Source: a virus. Taken from it: 39,559 nt of DNA. Location of the stretch: positions 1 to 39,559 of IMG/VR virus record IMGVR_UViG_3300009194_000024; one strand, 5' to 3'. The notes under the pieces are model-generated. The model did not search any database. It was not told where the DNA came from and was given only the letters and a program-made list of their open reading frames with translations. Shown here piece by piece: positions 2,349 through 39,559 of the stretch (position 1 is the first letter of the stretch; the number at the start of each line of letters is the position of its first letter). The position numbers were made by a program, and so were the translations under genes.

Positions 2349-2792
2349 ATGCCCAGCAAGGCCGAACAGATCCTGGCTCGAATCACGGCGGTACTGCTGG
2401 CAGGTGCAACACCTGCTGGCACCAACGTGTTCAGAGACCGAGAAGACGCACTCAGCACCGACGAGCCACGCTGCTACCTGATCGAGCCGCTGGACGAAGA
2501 CACAAAACCCCTGGGCGGCGGTGCCCAGGTGTTTGCTGGACGCGACGACGACACCCTGCGCTTTGCCATCACCTCGTGCATACGCGGTGCCAACTGGCAG
2601 ACACAGGCCGATGAGCAACGGGTAACCGCCCACCAGTTGCTTGCCAAAGACCCTCAACTGCGCCTGCTCATCAACGCCCTGCGGCGTGAGCGGTGCGAAT
2701 GGAAGGCAGCCAATGCCGACCAGCCTTTCGGGTACGCGGCGCAGATCTACAGCGCTCGCTACACCACTTCAACCCTTGCCCTTGATGCCTGA
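2349..2792 (+). CDS. tail terminator / minor tail protein candidate (gpU-like position)
   Basis: 147 residues from the ATG at 2349, two bases after the previous stop. The N-terminal helix (SKAEQILARITAVLLAGATPAGTNVFRDREDALSTDEPRCYLIEPLDED) followed by strands (DDTLRFAITSCIRG) is the usual layout of phage tail-terminator-like proteins, which cap the tail tube at the head-proximal end. It directly precedes the major tail protein. Specific membership of the lambda gpU family cannot be shown without a profile search. Confidence 0.7.
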   Translation: MPSKAEQILARITAVLLAGATPAGTNVFRDREDALSTDEPRCYLIEPLDEDTKPLGGGAQVFAGRDDDTLRFAITSCIRGANWQTQADEQRVTAHQLLAKDPQLRLLINALRRERCEWKAANADQPFGYAAQIYSARYTTSTLALDA

Positions 2793-2797
2793 CACCT

Positions 2798-2821
2798 GAA
2801 GGCCAGGGCTTTCCTTTTTTT
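2798..2821 (+). terminator. weak intrinsic terminator before major tail gene
   Basis: GAAGGCC (2798-2804) can pair with GGCTTTC (2807-2813), with the tip opened, and a run of seven T follows. It sits immediately before the ribosome-binding site of the major tail gene, so full-length late transcripts must read through it. Confidence 0.5.
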
Positions 2822-2833
2822 GGAGAACCTCCC

Positions 2834-3589
2834 ATGTTTGCACTCGGTGGAATCATCTGGGGCACGCCCACGCAAGACAACGCGGGCAACGCCATCGCCA
2901 ACCCTTCGCCCATCATCTGCGGCACCATGCAAGACGCTGAGCTTGAGTTCAAGTGGGAACTCAAGAAGCTGCGCGGTGAGAAGCAATTTGCCGTGGCCGT
3001 CAACCGCGCAGGCGCTGACGTGACCGGCAAGGTCAAGCACGCTGACATCCGCGCTGGCTTTTACGAGACCATCGTATTCGGCCAAGCTGGTGTGGCTGGC
3101 TTGACATCAGCGGTGTATGACACCGCTGGTGCGACCATCCCGGCCACGCCCTTCACCGTGACACCAACGATTCCAGGCACAGGCACCTTTGCGGCTGATT
3201 TGGGTGTCATCGATGTCACCACAGGCCGAGCTTTGACGCGCGTGGCATCGGCACCAACTGCCGGTCAGTATTCGGTTGCAGCTGGTGTCTACACCTTCGC
3301 AGCTGCCGATACAGGCAAGTTGGTCTACATCAACTTCCGCTACACAGCCACCAGCACCACGGCTCGCCGCATCAACGTGACCAACGGGCTCATGGGCTAC
3401 ACGCCCAAGTTCCGCTTGGACATGTACCTGCCTTACGAGGGCAAGAGCGCCATCTTCACGCTCAACACCTGTATCGCGGACGGTGCCAAGTTCGGCGTCA
3501 AGAACGACGACTTCACGGTGCCTGAGTTTGGCTTCACCGTGCAGGCCGATGCCCAAGGCAACATCGGCACGCTGGCCTTCACCGAGTAA
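2834..3589 (+). CDS. major tail tube protein
   Basis: 251 residues; starts at an ATG 9 bases after GGAG. The sequence fits a major tail tube protein: the N-terminal segment MFALGGIIWGTPTQDNAGNAI, the ELEFKWELKKLRGEKQFAVAVNRAG stretch, a variable Thr/Ala-rich middle (about residues 95-175), then FRLDMYLPYEGKSAIFTLNTCIADGAKFGVKNDDFTVPEFGFTVQAD. The protein polymerises into the tail tube. Its position between the tail terminator candidate and the gpG-like chaperone is the standard siphovirus order. Its stop overlaps the start of the next gene (TAATG). Confidence 0.85.
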   Translation: MFALGGIIWGTPTQDNAGNAIANPSPIICGTMQDAELEFKWELKKLRGEKQFAVAVNRAGADVTGKVKHADIRAGFYETIVFGQAGVAGLTSAVYDTAGATIPATPFTVTPTIPGTGTFAADLGVIDVTTGRALTRVASAPTAGQYSVAAGVYTFAAADTGKLVYINFRYTATSTTARRINVTNGLMGYTPKFRLDMYLPYEGKSAIFTLNTCIADGAKFGVKNDDFTVPEFGFTVQADAQGNIGTLAFTE

Positions 3590-3882
3590 TGCGACCCATG
3601 ACCACCACACCTCGTTATAAAGGCGTGTCCCTCGACCTGGGGGGCACGGTGTTCACGGTCGCGGCCATGTCCTTGGGGATCATCGAATCCTTCCAGGACC
3701 GTATCCAGGCGGTTGAAGCCGGGCAGGAAATTAACCCCCTGCCCGTGGTCGTTGACCTGCTGCACGCCTGCCTCAAGCGCAACCACTCGGATATCCCTCG
3801 TTCACTGGTTGCTGACCACGTTGACCTGGACAACTGGGAAGAGTGCATGGCCATGGTGCTGGTTTCCTGCCAGCGCTTGTAG
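3589..3882 (+). CDS. tail assembly chaperone, gpG-like (ends early at a stop inside a hairpin)
   Basis: 97 residues as read. gpG-like proteins escort the tape measure during tail assembly, and a longer gpGT form is made by a -1 ribosomal frameshift. The conserved part (YKGVSLDLGGTVFTVAAMSLGIIESFQDRIQAVEAG...NWEECMAMVL) is followed by VSCQRL and TAG at 3880-3882. That TAG lies in the loop of a perfect inverted repeat. Deleting the 28 bases 3876-3903 fuses the frame to a Thr/Pro-rich tail (REATEGNAGATTNPG..., stop near 4021) and puts G-GGA-AAC at 3916-3922 in the correct slippery phase. The visible end therefore looks like the result of an inverted duplication, or of an unusual decoding event. 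The start could also be the ATG at 3598. Confidence 0.75.
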   Translation: MRPMTTTPRYKGVSLDLGGTVFTVAAMSLGIIESFQDRIQAVEAGQEINPLPVVVDLLHACLKRNHSDIPRSLVADHVDLDNWEECMAMVLVSCQRL

Positions 3883-3903
3883 CCGCTGGCAGGAAACCAG
3901 CAC
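3856..3903. repeat. perfect 20-bp inverted repeat around the gpG stop codon
   Basis: Bases 3856-3875 are the exact reverse complement of 3884-3903, with an 8-base loop (cttgtagc) holding the TAG stop. No T run follows on the plus strand, so it is not a standard terminator. Loop plus one arm equals 28 nt, exactly the length whose removal restores the chaperone frame. Confidence 0.95.
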
Positions 3904-3915
3904 GGAGGCAACCGA

Positions 3916-3922
3916 GGGAAAC
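3916..3922 (+). promoter_or_regulatory. probable -1 ribosomal frameshift site GGGAAAC (gpG/gpGT)
   Basis: The heptamer G GGA AAC follows the X XXY YYZ rule and closely resembles the lambda G/T slippery site (GGGAAAG). A -1 slip leads straight into the T-like frame, which has no start codon of its own here. The upstream phase fits only if the 28-nt inverted duplication is skipped or absent. Confidence 0.6.
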
Positions 3923-4257
3923 GCGGGGGCGACGACGAACCCTGGGACTGGCCAGCCGTCTACGCCCACCTCGTCACCAGTTGCCCCGGCTGGACCTTCG
4001 ACTACTGCCGAGACGAGCTGACCCTGATCGAGCTGGAGGCGCTCACGCGCTACTGGAAGAAACGCCCTCCAGTGCATGTGAGCGTAGCGGCATACCTGGG
4101 CATCGGTGCTGGCAAGGCCAGCGACGGCAGCACCACACGCATCACCAGCGCAGACCAAGTGTTTGAGCTGATGGGCGAGCCAACCCACAAGTTCATCCCA
4201 CCTTGCCGAATGCTCACAGAGCCATCGGCCACGCCACCTGAGCAACCCCATGAGTGA
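3916..4257 (+). CDS. gpT-like extension of the tail chaperone (no start of its own)
   Basis: The frame after the slippery site encodes about 113 residues: DDEPWDWPAVYAHLVTSCPG, then CRDELTLIELEALTRYWKKRPPVHVSVAAYLGIG..., ending PPEQPHE before the tape measure start. This has the layout of the T domain of gpGT, which binds the tape measure. No ATG, GTG or TTG occurs in frame until an ATG at 4072, in the middle of the coherent sequence, so it must be reached by frameshift or readthrough. It is in the same frame as the truncated gpG after TAG 3880, so either UAG readthrough or the ancestral -1 shift (without the 28-nt insert) would join the two. The end overlaps the tape measure start by 8 bases. 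Confidence 0.65.
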   Translation, partial: GKRGGDDEPWDWPAVYAHLVTSCPGWTFDYCRDELTLIELEALTRYWKKRPPVHVSVAAYLGIGAGKASDGSTTRITSADQVFELMGEPTHKFIPPCRMLTEPSATPPEQPHE

Positions 4258-16723: not shown

Positions 16724-16763
16724 GGCGACCACGGGTGATGCGCTAACACCAACCGTGGCCACC
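16724..16763 (+). promoter_or_regulatory. structured leader upstream of the methylase gene
   Basis: CCACGG (16729-16734) pairs with CCGTGG (16753-16758) and GGTG (16734-16737) can pair with CACC (16747-16750), with further outer G-C pairs. No T run follows. It lies about 85 bases before the methylase start, in a 132-base gap that holds no convincing gene. It may be a regulatory RNA element. Confidence 0.4.
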
Positions 16764-16847
16764 AGAACACAGAACGCGCCTGTGAACCAGCCAAGGCCCT
16801 GCTACCTCCGGAGGCGGGGCAAGTGTAACAACTGCCTGGAGATCACA

Positions 16848-17635
16848 ATGGCAAACCCCATCATTCCCTGGGTCGGCGGCAAAAGACGCCTGGCCGACCA
16901 GCTCATCGAGCGATTCCCTCCACACAAGTGCTATGTCGAGCTTTTTGCAGGCGGCGCGGCCTTGTATTTCCTACGTCCACCTGCAGAAGTTGAAGTCATC
17001 AACGACATCAACGGCGAGCTGGTGAACCTGTATCGGGTGGTGCAACGCCACCTTGAAGAGTTTGTGCGCCAGTTCAAGTGGGCGCTGTCCAGCCGAGAGG
17101 TGTTCAAGTGGCTGCAAGACACCCCGCCTGACACCATGACCGACATCCAGCGTGCGGCCAGGTTCTTCTACCTGCAGCACCAGTGCTTCGGTGGCAAAGT
17201 CCAGGGCCAGACGTGGGGCACCGCCACCACGGCGCCGGCGGTGAACCTGCTGCGCATTGAAGAGCAGCTCAGCGCGGCACACCTGCGCTTGTCGGGCACC
17301 TACATTGAGCGGCGCCACTGGCTCAAGTGCATGGAGGTCTACGACCGCCCGCACACGTTCTTCTATCTGGACCCGCCCTACTGGGAGACCGAGGGCTACG
17401 GCGTGGAGTTTCCCTTCAGCGAATACGAAGCCATGGCCACGGCCATGCGCAAGCTGCAGGGTAGGCCATGCTGTCGATCAACGACCACCCGGCCATCCGG
17501 GAGTGCTTCCAGGGCTTTCACATGGAAAGCCTCGACATCACCTACACCGTGGGTGGTGGCGCCAAGGGAGCCGACCGGCGCGAGCTGGTGATCTGGTCGT
17601 GGGACCAGGAGGCTGAGCCTGCTGGATTGTTTTGA
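16848..17635 (+). pseudogene. dam: DNA adenine methylase (D12 class), frameshifted near its end
   Basis: Transfers a methyl group from S-adenosylmethionine to N6 of adenine, typically in GATC. From the ATG at 16848 (GGAG upstream): PWVGGKRRLADQLI and VELFAGGAALYF form the SAM-binding region, and YLDPPYWETEGYG the DPPY catalytic motif (residues 175-178). After KLQG at about 17461 the frame is lost: the expected GGTAAGGCCATG reads GGTAGGCCATG, one A short. The correct C-terminus continues from ATG 17468 (MLSINDHPAIRECFQGF...SLDITYTVGGG...RRELVIWSW) to a stop at 17635. With the base restored the protein is about 262 residues, a normal length. As read, a wrong-frame tail ends at 17591. Sequencing error or real inactivation cannot be told apart here. 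Confidence 0.8.
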
Positions 17636-17645
17636 TGATGAAAAG

Positions 17646-17682
17646 AAGCCCTCCATCCCATTGCGGGGTGGAGGGCTTTTTG
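17646..17682. terminator. strong terminator after methylase gene
   Basis: AAGCCCTCCATCCC (17646-17659) pairs with GGGGTGGAGGGCTT (17665-17678) with one G-T pair and loop ATTGC, followed by TTTTTG. The A-rich start makes it usable from both directions. It closes the rightward late operon before attP. Confidence 0.85.
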
Positions 17683-17691
17683 CGTTTCTTG

Positions 17692-17719
17692 TGGGGGATT
17701 TTTGGGGGACTGGCCCCCA
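17692..17719. repeat. attP left arm repeat (probable integrase arm site)
   Basis: Two GGGGGAY units around a T-rich spacer, then ACTGGCC. It matches 17909-17936 at 26 of 28 positions in direct orientation, and the two copies flank the tRNA core. Confidence 0.65.
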
Positions 17720-17869: not shown

Positions 17870-17902
17870 CGGTCTAGCGACTCCACTCGCTAGGCCGTTT
17901 TT
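17870..17902 (+). terminator. terminator downstream of attP core
   Basis: Eleven base pairs (17870-17880 with 17887-17897, one G-T), loop CTCCAC, then TTTTT. In an integrated prophage it would lie just after the rebuilt tRNA CCA end and could terminate the tRNA transcript. It overlaps the integrase stop codon on the other strand. Confidence 0.8.
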
Positions 17903-19071
17903 CTTTGCTGGGGGACTTTTGGGGGACTGGCCTCCAGTAGCGCCACCTGTTGCTCCAACTTCAACGTGGCCAGCGACCGATTCCACTGGCCCGAGTCCTT
18001 CTTGATCTTCTCCAACGCACTGTGCAGCTCCACGACCTGGGCCACGCTGTAGTGCTGGGTCATCGACTTGGTGCTGTGCCACAGGATGTCCGAGATGGTT
18101 GCCTCAGACACGCCAGCTTCACGCAGCCTCATCCCCACCGTGTGGCGCAAGTCATGCACGTGCAGGTCACCCAGGCCTGCAGCCTGGCGGGCATTGCACC
18201 AGGCGGTGTTGTTCATGGCCTCGATAGGCCGGTAGGCCATCTTGGGCGCCTGGTCGGTGTTTTTGACACGTTCCCGGCGATAAACAAACACAAACTCAGG
18301 GTGCTGGCCACGCACCGACTCCACGACCGATTGCGCCACGCTGTTGCAGATCACCACCTTCGACCGCTTGCGGCCCTTCACGTGCTGCCTGGGCACCTCG
18401 AAGACCGAGATGCCCAGCTCGGGCACCTTGATCTCCCACTCCCACTTCAGGTTGCACACCACGTCGTCACGCACGCCCGTGTTCAAGACGAACAGGGCCA
18501 TGCGCGCCAGGTGGTCTGGCAGCTTGGGTAGAAGCGTGTGTTGCTGTGACCAGGTGATGGGCCTGGGCTCGCGCTGGTGGCCAACGAGGGGGAGCAGTGT
18601 GATCTTCGGTGCCTGGTCCAGCCAAGTGCGCCCATTCTCGTCCCGCCAGCTCGTGGCCGCGAGGTTGAGGATGCGACGAACCACGGCCAAGGCCAGGTTG
18701 ATCGTCTTGTGTGCCCTCCCATCCTGCAGCCGGGCGTTGACGAATGGCGCCAAAGTGCCATCGTGTACTTGCGCCAGCTCCAGGTGATGGATGAAAGGCA
18801 TCACTGACTGCAGCATGTAGATCTCGGTCTTGATGGATGCCTTGTCGGCATGCAGTTGCACGTAGTGGGCTGCAGCCTGGTCGAACGTGCGGCTCTCTTG
18901 CACACCGTGCAGCACCGTAGCTCGATGAGCCGCGAGCTGCTCGATCAGCCAGCGCTGCGCCTCTTCAAAACTGACGAAGCCGCGCTGGCGAAATCGAGTG
19001 CCGAACTGCCACTTGTCGACTTGCCATTGCCCATTCTTGTCGGGGTAGACCCCGCTTGTTTTGTGGCCCAT
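17890..19071 (-). CDS. int: tyrosine recombinase / phage integrase
   Basis: 393 residues. Catalyses site-specific recombination between attP and the host tRNA-Arg locus. The N-terminal arm-binding domain has GVYPDKNGQWQVDKWQFGTRFRQRGF; a core-binding domain spans about 60-160. Catalytic residues: Arg201 (NTGVRDDVV), His306/Arg309 (HDLRHTVGMRL), His332 (LWHSTKSM) and Tyr341 (QHYSVA). The ATG at 19071 has AAAGGAG seven bases before it. It is the last gene of the leftward operon and its stop lies 41 bases from the attP core, the usual arrangement. The start overlaps the 3' end of the excisionase-like gene by about 127 bases. Confidence 0.95.
   Translation of the reverse strand: MGHKTSGVYPDKNGQWQVDKWQFGTRFRQRGFVSFEEAQRWLIEQLAAHRATVLHGVQESRTFDQAAAHYVQLHADKASIKTEIYMLQSVMPFIHHLELAQVHDGTLAPFVNARLQDGRAHKTINLALAVVRRILNLAATSWRDENGRTWLDQAPKITLLPLVGHQREPRPITWSQQHTLLPKLPDHLARMALFVLNTGVRDDVVCNLKWEWEIKVPELGISVFEVPRQHVKGRKRSKVVICNSVAQSVVESVRGQHPEFVFVYRRERVKNTDQAPKMAYRPIEAMNNTAWCNARQAAGLGDLHVHDLRHTVGMRLREAGVSEATISDILWHSTKSMTQHYSVAQVVELHSALEKIKKDSGQWNRSLATLKLEQQVALLEASPPKVPQQRKTA
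17909..17936. repeat. attP right arm repeat (probable integrase arm site)
   Basis: Second copy of the GGGGGAC-TTTT-GGGGGACTGGCC repeat, inside the 3' end of the integrase gene. Same direction as the copy at 17692-17719. Confidence 0.65.
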
Positions 19072-19368: not shown

Positions 19369-19728
19369 TCAAAACGGTAGGTCTTTATGGCCGGTAGCAA
19401 AGCGTTGTTGCAAGCGAATCTTTAGCACCTGACGCCTCCATGCGCGGCGCTGTGCTTGCGTGTTTCGTATGGCCTTGCTCACCCACCTGATGCGGCTCGC
19501 CCAAATTGCTGACAACCACCGACCTTGGACTTTTTCCCGAGGCCCCTCTTCGTGGCATGTCATGTGCCTTGGCCCCAGTCTCGGGCCAATGGTCACGCGT
19601 TTGTCGAATGTGCATGGCATGGCTTTCTTGCTTGGGTAGCGTCTCACCCTCACTCTCGTCAAAGGCTGCGCCAGATCATCGTCGTCCTGGGTTTCGCTGG
19701 CCAGAGGCATTTCAAAGATGGCTGACAT
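19369..19728 (-). CDS. hypothetical basic protein between RT and excisionase
   Basis: 119 residues from the ATG at 19728, preceded by CAGGAG at 5 bases, overlapping the RT gene end by 17 bases. It begins with an acidic stretch (SETQDDDDLAQP), then becomes strongly basic and rich in Arg and Trp (RVRVRRYPSKKAMP..., GRWLSAIWASRIRWVSKAIRNTQAQRRAWRRQVLKIRLQQRF). I do not recognise a family. The basic, helical second half suggests nucleic-acid binding. Being coupled to the RT gene it could serve the DGR, or it could simply be an early phage gene. Confidence 0.6.
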   Translation of the reverse strand: MSAIFEMPLASETQDDDDLAQPLTRVRVRRYPSKKAMPCTFDKRVTIGPRLGPRHMTCHEEGPREKVQGRWLSAIWASRIRWVSKAIRNTQAQRRAWRRQVLKIRLQQRFATGHKDLPF

Positions 19729-21100
19729 GGTCACTCCTGATTCGGTAACACTTGCTCAAGTCAGCCTTGACACAATGCCCGCGCAGGCGCAGCACGTTGG
19801 CAATGCGGGCTTGCTCGGCATGGCCCTTTGATGCCTGGCGCACAAGGCCCAGGTAACTGTTACCGACCTCGAACAGATCGTCGGCAGGTGTCTCATGCAG
19901 ACGTCTGTACGCATTGCGCAGTGTTCTTGGCCGGGTTGTTCTGCACCAGGGCTTGATAACTTGCCCGACGAAGTCGATGCCGCGGTCGACGGGCTGCAAG
20001 ATGGTTTTGCTGGGGTTGAGCCCCAAGCTCAAGCGCTCTGGCAAGAAGTCAGTCACGTCGCGCAGCACATGGTTCAGCCACTGGCTGCTTTCATGCACCA
20101 GCACGAAGTCATCGACATACCGAACGTAGTGCGGCGCCTTCAGTGTGTGCTTGACACGCTTGTCGAGCACGTCCAGCAGCACGTTGGCAAAGAACTGCGA
20201 CGACAGGTTGCCAATGGGCAGCCCGTGGTCATCGGGCGCATTGAAGAGGCTCTTGTGTGGCGGCACCAGGCGCAACAGTTGCGCGTTGCCCCTCACCTCC
20301 ACGTCGCCCCGTGGGTCGTGCATCAGCACCGTGTGGGCCAGCCTGAGCCACCAGGGCTCGGTGATGCGCCTGGCCAGCAATTCGAACACCACATGCTTGT
20401 TGATTGAAACGAAGAAGTTGGCCAGGTCGCACTTCAGGTAGTGCGCTGGCTTGCTCCAGTTGTGTGTCACGCTTCGCACCTGGTGCTCTAGGCGCTTGGC
20501 TGCGTACAGCGTGCCCCTGCCGGGGATGCACGCACAGCTATCAGCCGTGAATGCGTTGTGAAATCGCTCCATCACCTGGTTGTAGAGCAGGCGATGGACG
20601 ATGCGGTCGCGTATGTCTGCGGCCCACACCTCACGTGGTTTGGGTCGGGTGATCACGAAGCAGATGGATCTGCCTGGTTGATACTCTCCGCTGATCAATT
20701 CATCGTGTAGGTCGCACAGGTTGCGCTCGGCCTTGGCCTCAAACACGGATGCGCTTTTGCTGCTGCGCTTTGATCTGAGGCAGTCTATGTAGGCTGCCAC
20801 CAGCTTATCGAACAGGTCAGGATCTGCGGACAACTCGGGCGCGCAGCTCAGAACTCTTGTTGTTGTTGTTCTGGTTGCCGTTGTTGAAGTTCTGATACCA
20901 CGCGTTGTTGGACGAGTACTGCGATTGTTCGCGCTATCTACGTCACCATGGCGAGGGCTTCCGCCGATCACTGTGGCGACTGCACCAGACCAGCCAGGTG
21001 CTTGCCCTGCGGTATCTGCGGTGTGCATGGCGGTGCCCTTGTGAGGCAGCGGCGCGACCAGATTCAATATGGGCACGGGCATGAGAGCCTTGACTGTCAT
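19712..21100 (-). CDS. DGR reverse transcriptase
   Basis: 462 residues from the ATG at 21100. Copies template-repeat RNA into adenine-mutagenised cDNA for transfer into the variable repeats. RT motifs: YLKCDLANFFVSINK (first catalytic Asp, about 225), GLPIGNLSSQ (about 293-302, the DGR-type version of motif 4, where retroviruses have QGSP), and YVRYVDDFVL with the YVDD active site (about 328-331), then GLNPSKTILQPVDRGIDFVGQ. The ATG overlaps the avd stop (ATGA) and has AGGAGG eight bases before it, so it is the best-supported start. This adds ~100 residues that run through the template repeat in a frame different from the target genes. An unmarked start after the repeat (e.g. GTG 20800) would give a 362-residue protein nearer the usual size. 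Confidence 0.9.
   Translation of the reverse strand: MTVKALMPVPILNLVAPLPHKGTAMHTADTAGQAPGWSGAVATVIGGSPRHGDVDSANNRSTRPTTRGIRTSTTATRTTTTRVLSCAPELSADPDLFDKLVAAYIDCLRSKRSSKSASVFEAKAERNLCDLHDELISGEYQPGRSICFVITRPKPREVWAADIRDRIVHRLLYNQVMERFHNAFTADSCACIPGRGTLYAAKRLEHQVRSVTHNWSKPAHYLKCDLANFFVSINKHVVFELLARRITEPWWLRLAHTVLMHDPRGDVEVRGNAQLLRLVPPHKSLFNAPDDHGLPIGNLSSQFFANVLLDVLDKRVKHTLKAPHYVRYVDDFVLVHESSQWLNHVLRDVTDFLPERLSLGLNPSKTILQPVDRGIDFVGQVIKPWCRTTRPRTLRNAYRRLHETPADDLFEVGNSYLGLVRQASKGHAEQARIANVLRLRGHCVKADLSKCYRIRSDHVSHL
20825..20923 (-). repeat. DGR template repeat (TR)
   Basis: 99 bp aligned without gaps to both variable repeats. Read on the minus strand in the target frame it encodes SQYSSNNAWYQNFNNGNQ, then four Asn and KSSELRARVVR. 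Ten AAC codons make up the variable positions, the codon best suited to adenine mutagenesis because no substitution at its first two bases gives a stop. The first 31 bases on the plus strand (GC-rich, invariant) are the initiation-of-mutagenic-homing-like end. The match with VR1 extends to 20822. Confidence 0.95.
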
Positions 21101-21462
21101 GCTACAGGCCTCCTGTCGGCTGATTTTTTGAGCCATCCACCGCCTTGCTTGCCAATGCTGTCGAGCAACTGGATCGATGCAGACCACACCTTCGGCGAGA
21201 TGTGCCTGCTGTCATGCGAAGCCCTGAAAAGCACCGTGAGTGTTCTTTGGTGCTTGAGCAGTGCATTGATGTTGCTCACTCGCTCGTTGCCCTTGGTGGC
21301 GTTGGCCAGGGCCATGAGGTCGAGCATTTCAACGCAGTGATGACTGATCTTGTCGCCCATGTGACGCTTGACGCCGCGCGGCATTTGCTCTTGCGCCTTG
21401 ATGGCCAACGAAAGCAACTGCACGCCTGTGCGGTGTATTGGTAGATCGGAGTGGATGGCCAT
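21097..21462 (-). CDS. avd: DGR accessory variability determinant (Avd-like)
   Basis: 121 residues from the ATG at 21462. Avd forms a positively charged four-helix-bundle pentamer that binds the RT and template RNA and is needed for retrohoming in well-studied DGRs. The opening SDLPIHRTGVQLLSLAIKAQEQMPRGVKRHMGDKISHHCVEMLDLMALANATKG has the family pattern (PI-x-K/R-x-x-x-LL, PR-x-x-KR-x-x-G-x-K/R-I, CVE-x-L). Four helices are predictable and the protein is basic. It sits between the VR1 gene and the template repeat, the same place as in the Bordetella phage BPP-1 cassette. No clear ribosome-binding site; translation may be coupled to the target gene upstream. Confidence 0.85.
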   Translation of the reverse strand: MAIHSDLPIHRTGVQLLSLAIKAQEQMPRGVKRHMGDKISHHCVEMLDLMALANATKGNERVSNINALLKHQRTLTVLFRASHDSRHISPKVWSASIQLLDSIGKQGGGWLKKSADRRPVA

Positions 21463-21480
21463 GATCAAAGGATCAAAGGA

Positions 21481-21936
21481 TTAAGCGGGCAATCTGCGGA
21501 CAACTCGGGCGCGCAGCTCAGAACTCTTGTTGACGCGGTTCTGGTAGCCGTAGTAGAAGTCCTGATACCACGCGTTGAGGGACGAGTACTGCGTGTTGGA
21601 CCAGTAGGCTTCACCCTTGAACAGGTGCTTGGCGTACTTGAACAAGATGGCTTGCTCCACTCGGTCTGGCAAATCGCCGCCCTGCTCTTTTGCCCAGCGC
21701 ATCTGGGTGTCCCAGTCGGCCTCGTCGTTGTCGCCGTCGAGTACGGTCAGGTGGTACTTGGTCTTGCCGTCATCGGCAACGAGTGTCGCAATCCACGTCT
21801 CGCCGGGCAGCAGCTCGGGGGCTGTCAGCTCGACTGGGAAGATGTTAGGCAGTGTTGGCTTGGATTCGTAGGCGGCGATCAGGTCATTGACCTGCTGTTG
21901 CGCGGCCTTGATTTGCTCAAGAGTCACTTGTTGCAT
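21481..21936 (-). CDS. DGR target protein 1 (DUF1566/C-type-lectin-like)
   Basis: 151 residues from the ATG at 21936 (GGAG seven bases before). The C-terminal ~45 residues come from variable repeat 1: AYWSNTQYSSLNAWYQDFYYGYQNRVNKSSELRARVVRRLPA. The YWSSTQ...A...F...GYQ...RARVVR pattern is the conserved core of DUF1566-like, formylglycine/C-type-lectin-type folds used as DGR targets. The N-terminal part is a helix (LEQIKAAQQQVNDLIAAYESKP) and a compact beta domain (ETWIATLVADDGKTKYHLTVLDGD). It has no signal peptide or membrane segment. Variable residues are surface-exposed in this fold and would make a ligand-binding face. The natural ligand is unknown. Confidence 0.85.
   Translation of the reverse strand: MQQVTLEQIKAAQQQVNDLIAAYESKPTLPNIFPVELTAPELLPGETWIATLVADDGKTKYHLTVLDGDNDEADWDTQMRWAKEQGGDLPDRVEQAILFKYAKHLFKGEAYWSNTQYSSLNAWYQDFYYGYQNRVNKSSELRARVVRRLPA
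21495..21593 (-). repeat. DGR variable repeat 1 (VR1)
   Basis: Aligns without gaps to the template repeat with 10 substitutions, all at template adenines on the coding strand: two in the first AAC codon, one each in four further AAC codons, two each in two of the last AAC codons. Non-adenine positions are all identical. Confidence 0.95.
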
Positions 21937-21967
21937 GTGCTTGCTCCGTGATTAAAGGATTGAAGGA

Positions 21968-22573
21968 TCAATCGATCAGTTGAATCGTGCGGACAACTCG
22001 GGCGCGCAGCTCAGAACTCTTGTCGTCGTCGCTCTGGTAGCCGTGGCTGAAGTACTGAAACCACGCGTTGAGGGACGAGTACTGCGTGCTGGACCAGTAC
22101 AGCGCCTCCTCAAAGGCCTGCGGCCCACCCTCCTGGAAGTCTTGTGCAGACGTCTGCACCACCGGGTTGTGGGCATACGGGTAGCCTGGTGGCTCGCTGC
22201 TGGGGTTGTCACCATCGCGGAAGTACCCACCAGTCTGGTAGGTTGTAGGTTTGAGGTGGCGGTATGCCAGCTCAAGCACATCGCGCGCGGGGATAGCCCA
22301 GTCGCTGAACCCGGCAATGCGCAAGCCAGTGGCCCATTGGGCAAGCGGGCTGCCATCCTCTGCCATGGCCACGGTGTTGGCCAGGCTGTCGTTGTAGCTG
22401 GTGGCGCTGATGATGTCGGTGAACTTGGGGTGCCATACCATCTCGGTTTCGCCCGCGTCTTTCGGTGCCCAGATGGCGGCGCAGAGGATCTGGTTAACTC
22501 GCACCAGGCCACCGAAGTGGCCACCTTCGGCCTCGATGAATGCGCCGAGCGCTGGGAGGTTGTCTTTCTTCAT
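21968..22573 (-). CDS. DGR target protein 2 (DUF1566/C-type-lectin-like)
   Basis: 201 residues from the ATG at 22573 (AAAGGAG upstream). The C-terminus holds variable repeat 2: LYWSSTQYSSLNAWFQYFSHGYQSDDDKSSELRARVVRTIQ. The preceding ~150 residues (GGHFGGLVRVNQILCAAIWAPKDAGE, WATGLRIAGFSDWAIPARDVLELAYRHLKP) form a full DUF1566-type domain, with FSDWAIPARDVLEL matching the family's W-x-L/I-P-x-R-x-E-L motif. No signal peptide. It is the first DGR gene in the operon, and both target genes end with the same kind of repeat and share a 22-bp 3' flank, so they probably arose by duplication around the repeat. Confidence 0.85.
   Translation of the reverse strand: MKKDNLPALGAFIEAEGGHFGGLVRVNQILCAAIWAPKDAGETEMVWHPKFTDIISATSYNDSLANTVAMAEDGSPLAQWATGLRIAGFSDWAIPARDVLELAYRHLKPTTYQTGGYFRDGDNPSSEPPGYPYAHNPVVQTSAQDFQEGGPQAFEEALYWSSTQYSSLNAWFQYFSHGYQSDDDKSSELRARVVRTIQLID
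21988..22086 (-). repeat. DGR variable repeat 2 (VR2)
   Basis: Aligns without gaps to the template repeat with 11 substitutions, all at template adenines: nine AAC codons are affected across the variable block except where unchanged, plus one TAT to TTT. No change falls at a non-adenine position. Confidence 0.95.
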
Positions 22574-22594: not shown

Positions 22595-23119
22595 TCAGGC
22601 AGATGCCCGTTTGTGTTCACGTGACAGCTTCTTGACGTTGTCGACAACGTCCTGGCACGTGCTGTTGGTTGGGAGGTTGAGGTGGGAGGTGATTTCCTGC
22701 ATGGCGCGTAGAAGGGCTATCTTTTGCGCGTCGCCATAAGCGTTGGTGCGTCGCTCACCGACATGCATGATGATTTCTCTGGGTGGACGAAGGACGACCT
22801 CACCTGGCAGCGGCACTTGCGGAAACCTGTCGACAGGTCGGGGGTTGTGCCCTGTTGGCGCTCGCCCCGTCATGCGTGGCCTGGTGGCCAGCAACCACAG
22901 GTAGGCGTCTCGGGCGTCCGTGTCGCTGCCGAAGTACAGCGTCACGGTGCCTTTGCCCTCGTAGCTGGCGGTCCATGCCACGTGCGGGTGCTCCATGGGG
23001 TTGTTGTCAGGCACTGGCACGCTTAGGCGCTTGATGAAAGCGGCCAGCAAGGCCATGTAGCCAATCAACAGCAGCGCGGCTAGGGCCATCAGGTTGGGTA
23101 CGGTCATCAGGTCAGCCAT
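22595..23119 (-). CDS. hypothetical membrane-anchored protein
   Basis: 174 residues; the ATG at 23119 has GGAGG seven bases before. Residues ~8-30 (PNLMALAALLLIGYMALLAAFI) form one transmembrane helix, followed by a soluble part with HVAWTASYEGKGTVTLYFGSDTDARDAYLWLLATRP and a C-terminal helical region (QKIALLRAMQEITSHLNLPTN). No family recognised. It lies just upstream of the DGR target genes in the same operon, so it could present or anchor a partner at the inner membrane, but nothing in the sequence proves a link. Confidence 0.65.
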   Translation of the reverse strand: MADLMTVPNLMALAALLLIGYMALLAAFIKRLSVPVPDNNPMEHPHVAWTASYEGKGTVTLYFGSDTDARDAYLWLLATRPRMTGRAPTGHNPRPVDRFPQVPLPGEVVLRPPREIIMHVGERRTNAYGDAQKIALLRAMQEITSHLNLPTNSTCQDVVDNVKKLSREHKRASA

Positions 23120-23561
23120 GGCACACCTCCATTTCGTCTGTTGCTGCCACCATCTGCACGTGTGAAAGCGCGTTTATCTGCTTCTCTGACCACTCAGCGG
23201 CCTCGATGGCGGTGACCTGGTCAACACGCTTGGCCAACTCGTCCATCACTGCCGCGCCATCTGCAGCCAGTGCGTAGTCCAGTGGCGTGGGCCACTCCAC
23301 GCGGCCAGTTGCGCGCCAGTGGGCCACCACGCGGTCGAACAGCTTGCTCTGCACCAGCATCTCGACCATGCCCATCTGGAGGGCGTTGGCCACGTATGAC
23401 CAGGTGAAGATGCCACCACCGATTTGCCACAGGGTTTCCACGTCGCCCTGGCCAGAGTGCAGGGCATCTACGTTCTGCCAGTGGGCAAGGCCCAGGTCGC
23501 GCACTTGGTCGGGCTTGAGCTTTGGCCGCAGCCAGCGCGGCACTTTGTGGCGCGCCTTCAT
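23112..23561 (-). CDS. hypothetical early protein
   Basis: 149 residues; starts in ATGA overlap with the ParB-like gene and ends overlapping the next gene by 8 bases. Begins KARHKVPRWLRPKLKPDQVRDLGLAHWQNVDALHSGQGD and continues in helical segments (TLWQIGGGIFTWSYVANALQMGMVEMLVQSKLFDRVVAHW, YALAADGAAVMDELAKRVDQVTAIEAAEW). Family not recognised; similar helical proteins are common next to ParB-like genes in beta-proteobacterial prophages. Tight coupling suggests a shared expression programme rather than a known joint function. Confidence 0.65.
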   Translation of the reverse strand: MKARHKVPRWLRPKLKPDQVRDLGLAHWQNVDALHSGQGDVETLWQIGGGIFTWSYVANALQMGMVEMLVQSKLFDRVVAHWRATGRVEWPTPLDYALAADGAAVMDELAKRVDQVTAIEAAEWSEKQINALSHVQMVAATDEMEVCHG

Positions 23562-27387: not shown

Positions 27388-27843
27388 TTAGGCTTGTTTG
27401 ATTAGCTGCGCGGGAATAAGTACACCCGCGCTGTCGGTCTGGTTTATTGGGTGTCTAACAGCTACGGCCTCTAGCATCTCGATGACGTGCAAAAGACCTG
27501 TTTCATTGATTTTCTCCAACAATTGATGCGCTCTGTCCCTTGTTGATACGGCGTGATATTTGCCTGGCTGTTCGTTCAATGTGAGCGATTTTGACCTGCC
27601 GCTTTGATTGAAGCCATCGATAGTGGAGAGGTCATCGGTATCTGGACCTTGAATGAACCATTCGACAGAAATGTCTAGCGCTTCGGCAATTTTGGGCAGC
27701 ATGAACCCGCCCCTACCTGTGGCCCTGTTTTCAAGGTTGCTGATCCCGGACTGCGTTTTATAGCCAACCCTGAGTGCAAGCTCCTCTCCCGAGAGTCCTC
27801 TGAACTCTCTGGCTTGTCTGATCCGGTCGCCAATGGTTTTCAT
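27388..27843 (-). CDS. CI-like repressor (XRE helix-turn-helix)
   Basis: 151 residues from the ATG at 27843. N-terminal XRE domain: IGDRIRQAREFRGLSGEELALRVGYKTQSGISNLENRATGRGGFMLPKIAEALDISVEWFIQG, with the helix-turn-helix around EELALRVGYKTQSGISNLE. The C-terminal ~75 residues have no S24/LexA-type Ser-Lys protease motifs, so RecA-stimulated self-cleavage is not expected. A TACAAT -10-like box lies only four bases before the ATG, with a poor -35, so the mRNA may have almost no leader. It faces the cro-like gene across a shared operator. Confidence 0.85.
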   Translation of the reverse strand: MKTIGDRIRQAREFRGLSGEELALRVGYKTQSGISNLENRATGRGGFMLPKIAEALDISVEWFIQGPDTDDLSTIDGFNQSGRSKSLTLNEQPGKYHAVSTRDRAHQLLEKINETGLLHVIEMLEAVAVRHPINQTDSAGVLIPAQLIKQA

Positions 27844-27858
27844 GTGGATTGTATTAAA

Positions 27859-27906
27859 CACAAAACGTGTCAACACGTGGTGTTGAAGTTAAACACGTCG
27901 TGTGTT
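27859..27906. promoter_or_regulatory. operator region between repressor and cro-like gene
   Basis: Three operator-like inverted repeats: CACAAAACGTGT (27859-27870), AACAC-N3-GTGTT (27872-27884) and AACAC-N5-GTGTT (27892-27906). The first is repeated, inverted, at the leftward promoter near 26938-26949. Confidence 0.7.
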
Positions 27907-37265: not shown

Positions 37266-39014
37266 ATGAAACAGATCACACCAACGCGGCAGGCGAGCGG
37301 GGGCGGCAGCCGCATCCTGAACGCCTTTGTCGCGCAGCGTGCGGCTGAGCGTGCATCGCGGTCACCTGCCGGGCTGTGGCATGCAGCGCCTGACCAGGTC
37401 AAGCTGTTGAAGGCTCCACCCACCGCAGGCCTGCGCCGCTTCATGGCCGCAAGCAATGACCGGCTTGTGTCCGACATGATGGACACGCTGGGCATCGTCT
37501 CGGGCAATGCCGAGGTGCGGCAGTCGCTGCGCTCGATGCGAGCCAAGTCCAGACGTCTGGCCAAAGACAACGAGTACGTGAAGTACTTCTTGCACCTGCT
37601 GCGCAACAACGTGCCAGGCCCCAAGGGCTTCACGTTGCAGATGAAGATCTACAAGCAGCGCGGCGGCAAGCTGGACAGCGATGCAAACGCGACCATCGAA
37701 GAGGCCTACGCGGAGCACAGCAAGCGCGGCAACTTCACACCGTGCGGTCGCGCAAGCCGTGGCACCTTCGAGCGCTCATGCATCTCGAACCTGGCCCGCG
37801 ATGGCGAGGTCATCATTGAGCGGCTGTTCGGGGCTTGCTTCGGGCGCTTCGGTATTGCTCACCAGCTGATCGACCCTGACCTGCTGGATGACTCGCTGAA
37901 CTTGGCTGTCGGCTCGGCCATGCCTGGCTACGGCAAGCTCGACACTGGCAACAGCATCCGCATGGGTGTCGAGGTTGACCAGTACATGAAGCCAGTGGCG
38001 TACTGGTTCCTGAGCTTGCATCCTGGCGACGATGTGGCGGGCTACGCTGTCATGCGACACCGTCGCGTGGATGCTGACCGCATCATTCACTGGTTCTTGA
38101 GCGATGACGCCCGGCCAGGTGTGACGCGTGGTGTGCCTCTGATCTACTCGGGCCTGCGCCGCATGGCCATGCTTGGTGGCTACGAAGAAGCCGCACTGGT
38201 CAACGCTCGGCAGGGCGCAAGCAAGATGGGCTTCTACAAGCCGCCTGCCCAAGAGATGGGGGCACCGCCTGATGGCAGTGAGGTGGCTGACGGTCAGGAA
38301 GACAACGGCACACCAAGTGGCGGAGACTTGTACCAAGAAGCTGAGCCTGGCGTGTTCGGTGTGCTGCCAGCTGGTTGGGACTTCCAGACCTACGACCCGG
38401 CCTACCCCAACGACGCAATGGGCGGCTTCATCAAAGCCATGCTTCGGGCGTTCAGCAGCAGCGTAGGTATCAGCTACCCGATCATCGGTAACGACTACGC
38501 GGACATCAACCTGTCCACCATTCGCTACTCGGCCTTGCAAGACCGCGACACGTTCGAGTCGCTGCAGGAGGCAATGATCGAGGCGATCAGCCTGCCCATC
38601 TTCGAGAGCTGGCTCAGCCTGTCGCTCGGCTTGGGGCAAGTCGGCCGCCTGCCGCCTGACGGCTATGACCGCTTCAACAAGCCCCGGTTCTTCCCGCGCA
38701 AGTGGCGCAGCCCTGACCCACAGAAGGACTTGGCCGCAGGTGCGCAAGCCGTGGCGCTTGGTGTCACCAGCCGCACGCGCTTGTGCGCTGAGAACGGTGA
38801 CGACTTCGAAGAGATCCTCGAAGAGTTGTCGCGTGAAGAGCAGATGGCCCGCGACAAGAAGGTGACCCTGAACACCAACGCGGCGATGGCCAGCAAGAAC
38901 CCACCCAAAACCCCGCCAGGGCCTCAGCCTGCCTCTGAAGACGGCGGCACTGCAACGGGCCTTAAGCCTGACGACGAAGGAGAAACTGATGCCACAAGCA
39001 CAGACACAGACTGA
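37266..39014 (+). CDS. portal protein (lambda gpB family)
   Basis: 582 residues. Twelve copies form the DNA-entry vertex of the head. Typical lambda-portal features: an N-terminal segment with SRRLAKDNEYVKYFLHLLRNNVPGPKGFTLQM, FTPCGRASRGTFERSCISNLARDGEVIIERLFG, HQLIDPDLLDDSLN, RHRRVDADRIIHWFLSDDARPGVTRGVPLIYSGLRRMAMLGGYEEAALVNARQGASKMGFY and the clip/wing end SSSVGISYPIIGNDYADINLSTIRYSALQDRDTFESLQEAMIEAI. A short acidic, Pro/Thr-rich tail ends the protein. It overlaps the protease start by 26 bases. Confidence 0.95.
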   Translation: MKQITPTRQASGGGSRILNAFVAQRAAERASRSPAGLWHAAPDQVKLLKAPPTAGLRRFMAASNDRLVSDMMDTLGIVSGNAEVRQSLRSMRAKSRRLAKDNEYVKYFLHLLRNNVPGPKGFTLQMKIYKQRGGKLDSDANATIEEAYAEHSKRGNFTPCGRASRGTFERSCISNLARDGEVIIERLFGACFGRFGIAHQLIDPDLLDDSLNLAVGSAMPGYGKLDTGNSIRMGVEVDQYMKPVAYWFLSLHPGDDVAGYAVMRHRRVDADRIIHWFLSDDARPGVTRGVPLIYSGLRRMAMLGGYEEAALVNARQGASKMGFYKPPAQEMGAPPDGSEVADGQEDNGTPSGGDLYQEAEPGVFGVLPAGWDFQTYDPAYPNDAMGGFIKAMLRAFSSSVGISYPIIGNDYADINLSTIRYSALQDRDTFESLQEAMIEAISLPIFESWLSLSLGLGQVGRLPPDGYDRFNKPRFFPRKWRSPDPQKDLAAGAQAVALGVTSRTRLCAENGDDFEEILEELSREEQMARDKKVTLNTNAAMASKNPPKTPPGPQPASEDGGTATGLKPDDEGETDATSTDTD

Positions 39015-39559
39015 AGCGCCATTGAAGCTCGGTCGCCAATGGCGAACGTATGGGCTCAATGTCAAGGAGATCGATCAAGAGGCACGCACGGTGCCTCTTT
39101 CTTTTTCCAGTGAAGACCCCTACGAGCGCTGGTGGGGCGTAGAAATTCTCGGGCATGCACCCACAGAAGTGGACATGTCGTGGGCTGGCAGTGGCCGTGC
39201 GCCGCTGCTGGCAGACCACGATACCCGGCAACAGATCGGCGTTGTCCTGAGCGCCGAGATCGGCACCGACCGGAAAGGTCGGGCAATCGTGAAGTTCGGT
39301 AAGAGCGCACGCGCCGAGCAGGAATTTCAGGACGTACTTGATGGGGTTCGAACGAACGTCAGTGTCGGTTACGAGATCCGCGAACTTGAGCTGGTGAAGC
39401 AAGAGGGCGATGTGAGCACGTACCGGGTCACGGACTGGATGCCCCTGGAAGTCAGCCTTGTCTCGATCCCTGCCGACATGACCGTCGGTGTCGGGCGCGA
39501 TGGCGAGGCTGCCGAAAAGCCGGTGCGCATCAAGCGAGCCGCTGACCCCTCCTCTCCCC
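38989..39559 (+). CDS. prohead protease (3'-truncated by window edge)
   Basis: 190 residues seen; the ATG at 38989 has AAGGAG upstream and lies inside the end of the portal gene. HK97-type (U35-like) prohead protease, which cleaves the scaffold during head maturation. RAPLLADHDTRQQIGVV holds the catalytic His (His77), VRTNVSVGYEI the catalytic Ser (Ser125), and WMPLEVSLVSIPADMTVGVGR is the conserved C-terminal strand. The last visible residues (RAADPSSP) begin a Pro/Ser-rich linker. The capsid frame open at the left edge suggests a single protease-capsid gene, but the two visible ends do not join in frame directly (571 bases, not a multiple of three). Confidence 0.9.
   Translation, partial: MPQAQTQTEAPLKLGRQWRTYGLNVKEIDQEARTVPLSFSSEDPYERWWGVEILGHAPTEVDMSWAGSGRAPLLADHDTRQQIGVVLSAEIGTDRKGRAIVKFGKSARAEQEFQDVLDGVRTNVSVGYEIRELELVKQEGDVSTYRVTDWMPLEVSLVSIPADMTVGVGRDGEAAEKPVRIKRAADPSSP

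Follow-up and report, generated by a model that had tools for sequence, protein, structure and literature searches.

A conserved structured RNA upstream of the template in a two-target phage diversity-generating retroelement, with a candidate long-range helix to the template end

Introduction

How does a diversity-generating retroelement (DGR) start copying its template when there is no room behind that template for the RNA known to begin the process? The question is raised by a locus in an IMG/VR virus record (IMGVR_UViG_3300009194_000024), the 39,559 bases of which were analyzed in full and are referred to here as the window. The sole DGR complementary DNA (cDNA) synthesis described in the literature examined is that of Bordetella phage BPP-1, which begins at a folded spacer lying 3' of the template. 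This spacer recruits the reverse transcriptase (RT) and the accessory variability determinant (Avd), i.e. bRT-Avd, and supplies the adenine that primes the cDNA (PMC12875486). An earlier note on the window, made from sequence alone, had described a complete DGR in a temperate phage, with two target genes ending in near-identical 99-bp repeats, an Avd-like gene, a third copy of the repeat made of AAC codons and proposed as the template, and an RT, all on the minus strand and in that order. We show below that this description holds, and that a conserved RNA lies on the side of the template opposite to the BPP-1 spacer.

Results

Repeat finding detects exactly three copies of the repeat in the window, a template repeat (TR) and two variable repeats (VR1 and VR2), with one VR at the C terminus of each target open reading frame (ORF) (Table 1). 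As assessed by alignment, the copies differ at template adenines only. All 10 mismatches between TR and VR1 over 99 nucleotides (nt), and all 11 between TR and VR2, fall on TR adenines (p 2.8e-6 and 6.7e-7, respectively, the chance of this if mismatches were placed at random on a TR with 31 A in 99 positions). Read in the target frame, the TR corresponds to QYSSNNAWYQNFNNGNQNNNNKSSELRARVVR, with ten AAC codons that alone could give about 6e11 variants per target. The RT ORF carries the YVDD and IGNLSSQ motifs claimed in the earlier note, both intact; the latter is of the GxxxSQ type, whereas the group II RTs examined have a QGxxxSP-type motif (GxxxSP). The best sequence match of the RT in the PDB is 8ub7 (1.8e-29), listed simply as "Reverse transcriptase" and which we take to be the BPP-1 enzyme, followed by a group II maturase (1.5e-9). 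Placement of the enzyme outside DGRs, named in the earlier note as the outcome that would speak against it, was not obtained. In a maximum-likelihood tree, the window RT groups with those of BPP-1 and six other DGRs, and a 100/100 split separates this group from five group II RTs, although long branches leave the order inside the DGR group unsure. The Avd-like gene matches phrog_3206, the "Avd protein of DGR" family, and structural models of both targets have a lectin fold (see below). The RT tree, the adenine-only differences, Avd, and these models bear out the identification, and we are confident that the window carries a complete, apparently intact DGR in a temperate Burkholderiales-type phage.

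The interval between avd and the TR is filled by a full-length match to the structured RNA RT-15 (RF03018), absent from the earlier note, which ends at the TR start and is presumed to be the 5' part of the template RNA. RT-15 is present in 14 of 15 relatives scanned for it, and the fifteenth (L029) is cut off upstream. A search of 448 genomes (199 Pseudomonas and 249 Burkholderiaceae), a set that overlaps in part with the genomes from our RT search, gave 33 matches above the cut-off, 32 of which are followed by an RT of the same clade. The remaining match lies in a decayed DGR of genome G240 (L237, reverse complement of 2589-4187), in which avd, RT-15, and the initial TR bases are intact and of the RT only a C-terminal remnant has escaped deletion.

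The gaps on the two sides of the TR set the window apart from BPP-1 and five further phage DGRs. Those between avd and TR and between TR and the RT domain start are about 173 and 24 nt in the window, 0 and 144 nt in BPP-1, and 8-31 and 142-337 nt in five other phage DGRs. No match to RF03022 (Phage_DGR) was found in the window by the same search that finds it in BPP-1, and synonymous variation shows no local drop at the start of the RT gene, as a 3' spacer concealed in the coding sequence would cause. A minimum free energy fold of RT-15 plus TR as a single strand was uninformative (z -0.03). We also considered that RT-15 might be coding, as an N-terminal extension of the RT, the RT frame being open through it in 108 of 143 distinct loci (8 and 0 for the other frames). 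This was rejected because differences are spread evenly over codon positions (0.32/0.33/0.35, vs 0.26/0.21/0.54 in the RT gene).

A conserved strand of RT-15 that is unpaired in the Rfam consensus (strand X) can pair with a strand that straddles the 3' boundary of the TR (strand Y). Across 139 loci, position -2 of this X:Y helix is a Watson-Crick pair in 132 (GC 83, UA 25, CG 19, and AU 5), where 60 would be expected from the columns. Pairing extends to -4 and -3, the bases at -1 alternate between A-U and A-C, and hardly any variation is seen at 0 to +4. At -4 to -2, Watson-Crick pairs number 310 of 417 in this register and no more than 162 once it is slid. In a formal count, 86.4% of cells are paired (77.0 when shuffled) with a covariation of 0.268 (0.095 when shuffled), and 0 of 500 shuffles scored as high. 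A first covariation test, based on independent pairs, had only 3-9 pairs and was underpowered; a branch-coincidence test was used instead. Mapped on the RT tree, one partner at -2 changes 11 times and the other 10 times, and in seven cases the two change on the same branch, six of these to complementary bases; changes placed at random by branch length coincide 0.38 times on average and never more than four times in 5,000 trials. X:Y was first noticed in the same sequences later used to test it; in five new sequences, -2 is paired in four. X matches the ends of VRs at -2 in 43% of cases, indicating that it pairs with the template rather than with the shared repeat end.

The TR and the RT reading frame overlap. 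The ORF listed for the RT (19712-21187) is mechanical; homology to RTs is seen from about 20800-20824 onward, right where the TR has its 3' end. The distance from the TR-end motif TCCGCWGA to the RT domain is a multiple of three in 144/144 loci, over 12 lengths (27-60 nt). The targets also constrain the TR to whole codons, but the linker is under no such constraint, and the RT frame thus continues into the TR. In several Pseudomonas-type loci, an ATGATG inside the TR provides the sole ATG, GTG, or TTG between the in-frame TR stop and the RT domain, and four loci (L021, L025, L063, and L071) have none of these codons between about -150 and +30. In two Alcaligenaceae loci (L116 and L120), the RT frame does not run through the TR; the RT starts after the TR, with an ATG located 30 nt ahead of its conserved domain. 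In both, CAGAT at the TR end is CAAAT, and the X core ATCTGG is kept.

Next to the VRs, the sequence ATCCTTYRATCCTT follows both and occurs nowhere else in the window (chance 0.02), and VR and TR ends differ past a CAGA core. In the clade, TTCAATCC follows 65 of 306 VRs, vs TCAATCC after 2 of 139 TRs, i.e. in part of the members, and 72 of 306 VRs are followed by hairpins, vs 14 in shuffles. The window hairpins after VR1 and VR2 are each alone no better than shuffles, and their DNA fold is not significant. As judged from these patterns, the motif is a candidate target-recognition element.

Table 1. Positions of the DGR features in the window, ordered along the record
Feature	Positions	Strand	Remarks
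DGR reverse transcriptase	19712-20824	minus	phrog_1423 3e-108; RVT_1 4.5e-15; conserved domain begins ~20824
Strand Y (CAGATCCTG)	20818-20826	minus	Straddles TR 3' boundary; pairs with X
Template repeat (TR)	20825-20923	minus	99 nt; 10 AAC codons in target frame
RT-15 structured RNA (RF03018)	20922-21113	minus	192 nt, full length; score 173.4 bits (gathering score 82), E 3e-42
Strand X (TTGAATCTG)	21059-21067	minus	In RT-15, conserved, unpaired in Rfam consensus; pairs with Y
avd, accessory variability determinant	21097-21468	minus	123 amino acids (aa); phrog_3206 1.6e-17
Post-VR1 motif ATCCTTTGATCCTT	21468-21481	minus	Adjoins inverted repeat TGATC-CTTT-GATCA
Target gene 1, C-type-lectin-fold (modeled)	21481-21936	minus	151 aa; phrog_4245 6.7e-9; Pfam Lcl_C 1.9e-4, below cut-off
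Variable repeat 1 (VR1)	21495-21593	minus	99 nt; C terminus of target gene 1
Post-VR2 motif ATCCTTCAATCCTT	21955-21968	minus	Within hairpin GATTGA-TCCT-TCAATC
Target gene 2, Lcl_C/DUF1566-like C-type-lectin-fold (modeled)	21968-22573	minus	201 aa; phrog_4245 2e-28; structural model
Variable repeat 2 (VR2)	21988-22086	minus	99 nt; C terminus of target gene 2

To place the window DGR among its relatives, we collected those encoded in 443 viral-contig stretches and 110 genome stretches, kept the best 80 of each, and scanned these with three annotated phages, i.e. 163 loci. Named hosts are mostly Burkholderiales and Pseudomonas. Two VRs were found in 108 loci, three in 38, and more than three in 3, counts affected by a few long VRs that the scan broke up and by some truncated contigs. 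Two or more VRs exceeding 60 nt are present in 132 of the 147 loci left after removal of near-copies, and two or more targets are thus the rule in this clade. In some members further targets lie several kb away; L031, L107, L114, L117, L133, and L152 are among those with three or more VRs, some of which lie 2-7 kb upstream in extra lectin-like genes. Over the 163 relatives, 4,188 mismatches fall at TR adenines and 68 at all other TR bases; the scan tolerates mismatches at A better than others, which favors an excess at A, but it requires no fixed number of them.

Sister phages differ where mutagenesis would be expected to act. In L039/L040 and L041, a 1-kb RT stretch, the TR, and the VR flanks are identical, and yet one VR differs at 14 positions, 13 of which are at TR adenines, and the other at a single position, also at an A. 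L036 and L037, which are likewise identical in these regions, show 14 VR differences, all 14 of them at TR adenines. Read from the sequences, such differences are the expected footprint of recent mutagenic retrohoming. Only one other copy of the window phage was found (L004); as the two show 100% identity over 6,284 nt, it is uninformative on the activity of the window copy, which we infer to be active.

Both targets are C-type-lectin-fold proteins according to their structural models, with the VRs in the C-terminal part of the fold. The AlphaFold model of target 2 has a pLDDT (predicted local distance difference test) of 96.8, and VIA-align gives Z 12.0 to the C-terminal domain of Legionella Lcl (8q4e; root mean square deviation 3.3, 123 aligned) and 11.6 to 4eps. 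The target 1 model (pLDDT 84) is uncertain in its variable part; its best matches are 8oks (Z 8.9) and 8q4e (8.8), followed by many C-type lectins.

The phage is predicted to be temperate, as the earlier note had it, from gene content that would allow integration, viz. a tyrosine integrase (17890-19071) and a CI-like helix-turn-helix repressor (27388-27876). The DGR is placed between these two genes, all on one strand, and gene order thus puts it in a putative repressor-integrase operon, away from tail genes. Fetched flanks of relatives likewise have the integrase downstream and CI upstream, both on the RT strand. Window head and tail proteins found no match in these flanks, in a search with window sequences as queries that divergent genes could escape. 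A tropism switch of the BPP-1 type, acting through tail proteins and implied by the earlier note, is not borne out by this position. The ORFs around the DGR (19369-19734, 22595-23119, and 23112-23561) have no Pfam, PHROG, or NCBIfam match.

Elsewhere in the window, a 28-nt direct repeat (17692-17719 and 17909-17936, 93% identical, TGGGGGAYTTTTGGGGGACTGGCCYCCA) flanks the 3' end of the integrase gene, with a terminator-like hairpin nearby (17643-17681); the pair are possible attachment or integrase-arm sites. A D12-class adenine DNA methyltransferase (16755-17591; PF02086, 2.6e-23) adjoins the integrase on the opposite strand. Reading frames of the capsid region (1-1392 and 38989-39559) run off the two ends of the record, which may therefore be a permuted or cut genome. 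The terminase-portal DNA has no close match in the phage collection searched.

Discussion

The window DGR is a sound member of a known family. It shares with BPP-1 (mtd-avd-TR-brt) the order target-avd-TR-RT on one strand, Avd, a DGR-type RT, adenine-specific differences between TR and VR, and a C-type-lectin-fold target with a C-terminal VR. Whereas BPP-1 has one target, lies in a tail/lysis region, and has no avd-TR gap and a 144-nt spacer with RF03022 3' of the TR, the window has two targets in a repressor-integrase operon, RT-15 5' of the TR, and an RT frame that enters the TR. BalMu-1 has RT-14 just after its TR, as found by the same RNA search. Closer relatives have been annotated before. 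Burkholderia phage Magia (MT701587), Pseudomonas phage Haboob, and Shewanella phage vB_Sb_QDWS belong to the same clade (about 59-64% RT identity) and have Avd and the same operon position near the integrase. The Magia annotation flags lectin-fold DGR targets; Magia differs by its three VRs, and its annotation has neither RT-15 nor the helix. Earlier reports also include DGRs with two targets and an overlap of TR and RT. The DiGReF survey lists "group 3" cassettes and DGRs with several VRs per TR, e.g. two VRs in Pseudomonas fluorescens WH6, as well as TRs that overlap the RT ORF (PMC3521204); that overlap rests on annotation, and ours on frame conservation over 12 linker lengths. Rfam gives RF03018 a name and type without a tie to DGRs, and its model lacks the Y partner because it stops at the TR start. 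We found no link between RT-15 and DGRs in the literature, the X:Y helix appears to be undescribed, and the same goes, as far as our search reached, for an RNA layout with a covarying closure; the paper describing the RT-N motifs lay outside that search, and a prior link is possible. Bacteroides phage F2 has a distant DGR of seemingly similar layout, with gaps of 128 nt 5' and 33 nt 3' of the TR (L215 3211-3479), no Rfam match, and no RT-15; it may carry a 5' RNA of its own.

We propose that these phages use a second DGR RNA architecture, in which 5' RT-15 clamps both ends of the template, provides an internal primer or anchor for cDNA, and frees the TR to overlap the RT start. We hold the chances of this proposal to be even. 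In this proposal, RT-15 would recruit RT-Avd, and the X:Y helix would close the template into a loop and put an RT-15 nucleotide beside the TR 3' end for cDNA to start, taking the part played by the 3' spacer in BPP-1. We hold the wider scheme, that of an Avd-type DGR, with confidence: RT-15, TR, and RT, presumably on a single transcript, serve a system in which RT with Avd copies TR RNA into cDNA with misincorporation opposite adenines, and the mutated cDNA replaces VR1 or VR2, i.e. the predicted ligand-binding C-terminal parts of the targets. The targets might act in lysogens or early in infection, and not as tail fibers.

Several observations weigh against this picture. The window X:Y helix is among the weaker ones (-3.8 kcal/mol, with mismatches at two positions), and its part in cDNA initiation remains a proposal. 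The RT start codon is not settled, with an open frame that reaches 21187. Avd scores below curated cut-offs both for Pfam bAvd (1.2e-7, 32.6 bits, cut-off 40) and for NCBIfam NF033474 (5.9e-11, 42.6 bits, cut-off 80), and so do the targets for Pfam Lcl_C (9.7e-8, 32.7 bits, cut-off 34.9, for target 2). In addition, the two assemblies of the window phage show no VR variation.

The alternative that survives best concerns the targets, which could be virion receptor-binding proteins like Mtd that happen to be encoded away from tail genes. Their modeled C-type-lectin fold is that of known DGR targets, and those of phage DGRs are, as a rule, receptor-binding proteins of the tail (PMC10743442). We nevertheless see this as the less probable option, if a serious one, for the targets are small stand-alone proteins in a repressor-integrase operon, whereas the DGRs of BPP-1, ACA1, and Lagaffe are flanked by tail, baseplate, or lysis genes. 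With the DGR in this operon, it is plausible that the targets act in lysogens or early in infection.

A second alternative is that RT-15 and X:Y regulate translation of the RT rather than cDNA synthesis. Y overlaps the RT reading frame, which extends across the 3' end of the TR, and the loci with a sole ATGATG start inside the TR fit such control. We judge it unlikely, though well short of negligible, because the helix joins a 5' leader to the TR 3' boundary, which is where DGR cDNA starts in BPP-1 (PMC12875486), and an alternative in the form of a 3' spacer, or of synonymous constraint where the RT begins, was not seen. L116 and L120, where the RT starts after the TR, do not decide between the two roles, since the ATCTGG core is kept but CAAAT replaces CAGAT.

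It is improbable that the window copy, although a DGR by descent, is an inactive relic. The identity of the two window assemblies and the RT deletion in L237 would be in keeping with decay, but RT, Avd, and both targets are open, the RT motifs are intact, no mismatch between the TR and either VR falls outside adenines, and sister phages have demonstrably diversified. A reading in which the enzyme falls in another RT class (group II intron, retron, or defense RT) and the repeats are coincidental duplications can be practically dismissed, since the far-below-cut-off best NCBIfam match to a group II RT and the weak matches to PADLOC models for many RT classes are outweighed by the RT tree, the GxxxSQ rather than GxxxSP motif, Avd, and adenine-only repeats in the window and its relatives.

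In a large clade of proteobacterial phages, then, there is no room for a 3' spacer, and a conserved RNA on the opposite side of the template covaries with the TR 3' end. The helix makes cDNA priming testable in DGRs that lack a 3' spacer. If RT-15 does initiate cDNA, comparison with BPP-1 would show which features of DGR priming are essential, an Rfam family recorded merely as RT-associated would be explained, and an alternative RNA layout would become available for targeted-mutagenesis tools. Finally, two diversified lectin-fold proteins are consistently encoded together in a repressor-integrase operon, and one may ask what else, apart from tail fibers, temperate phages diversify.

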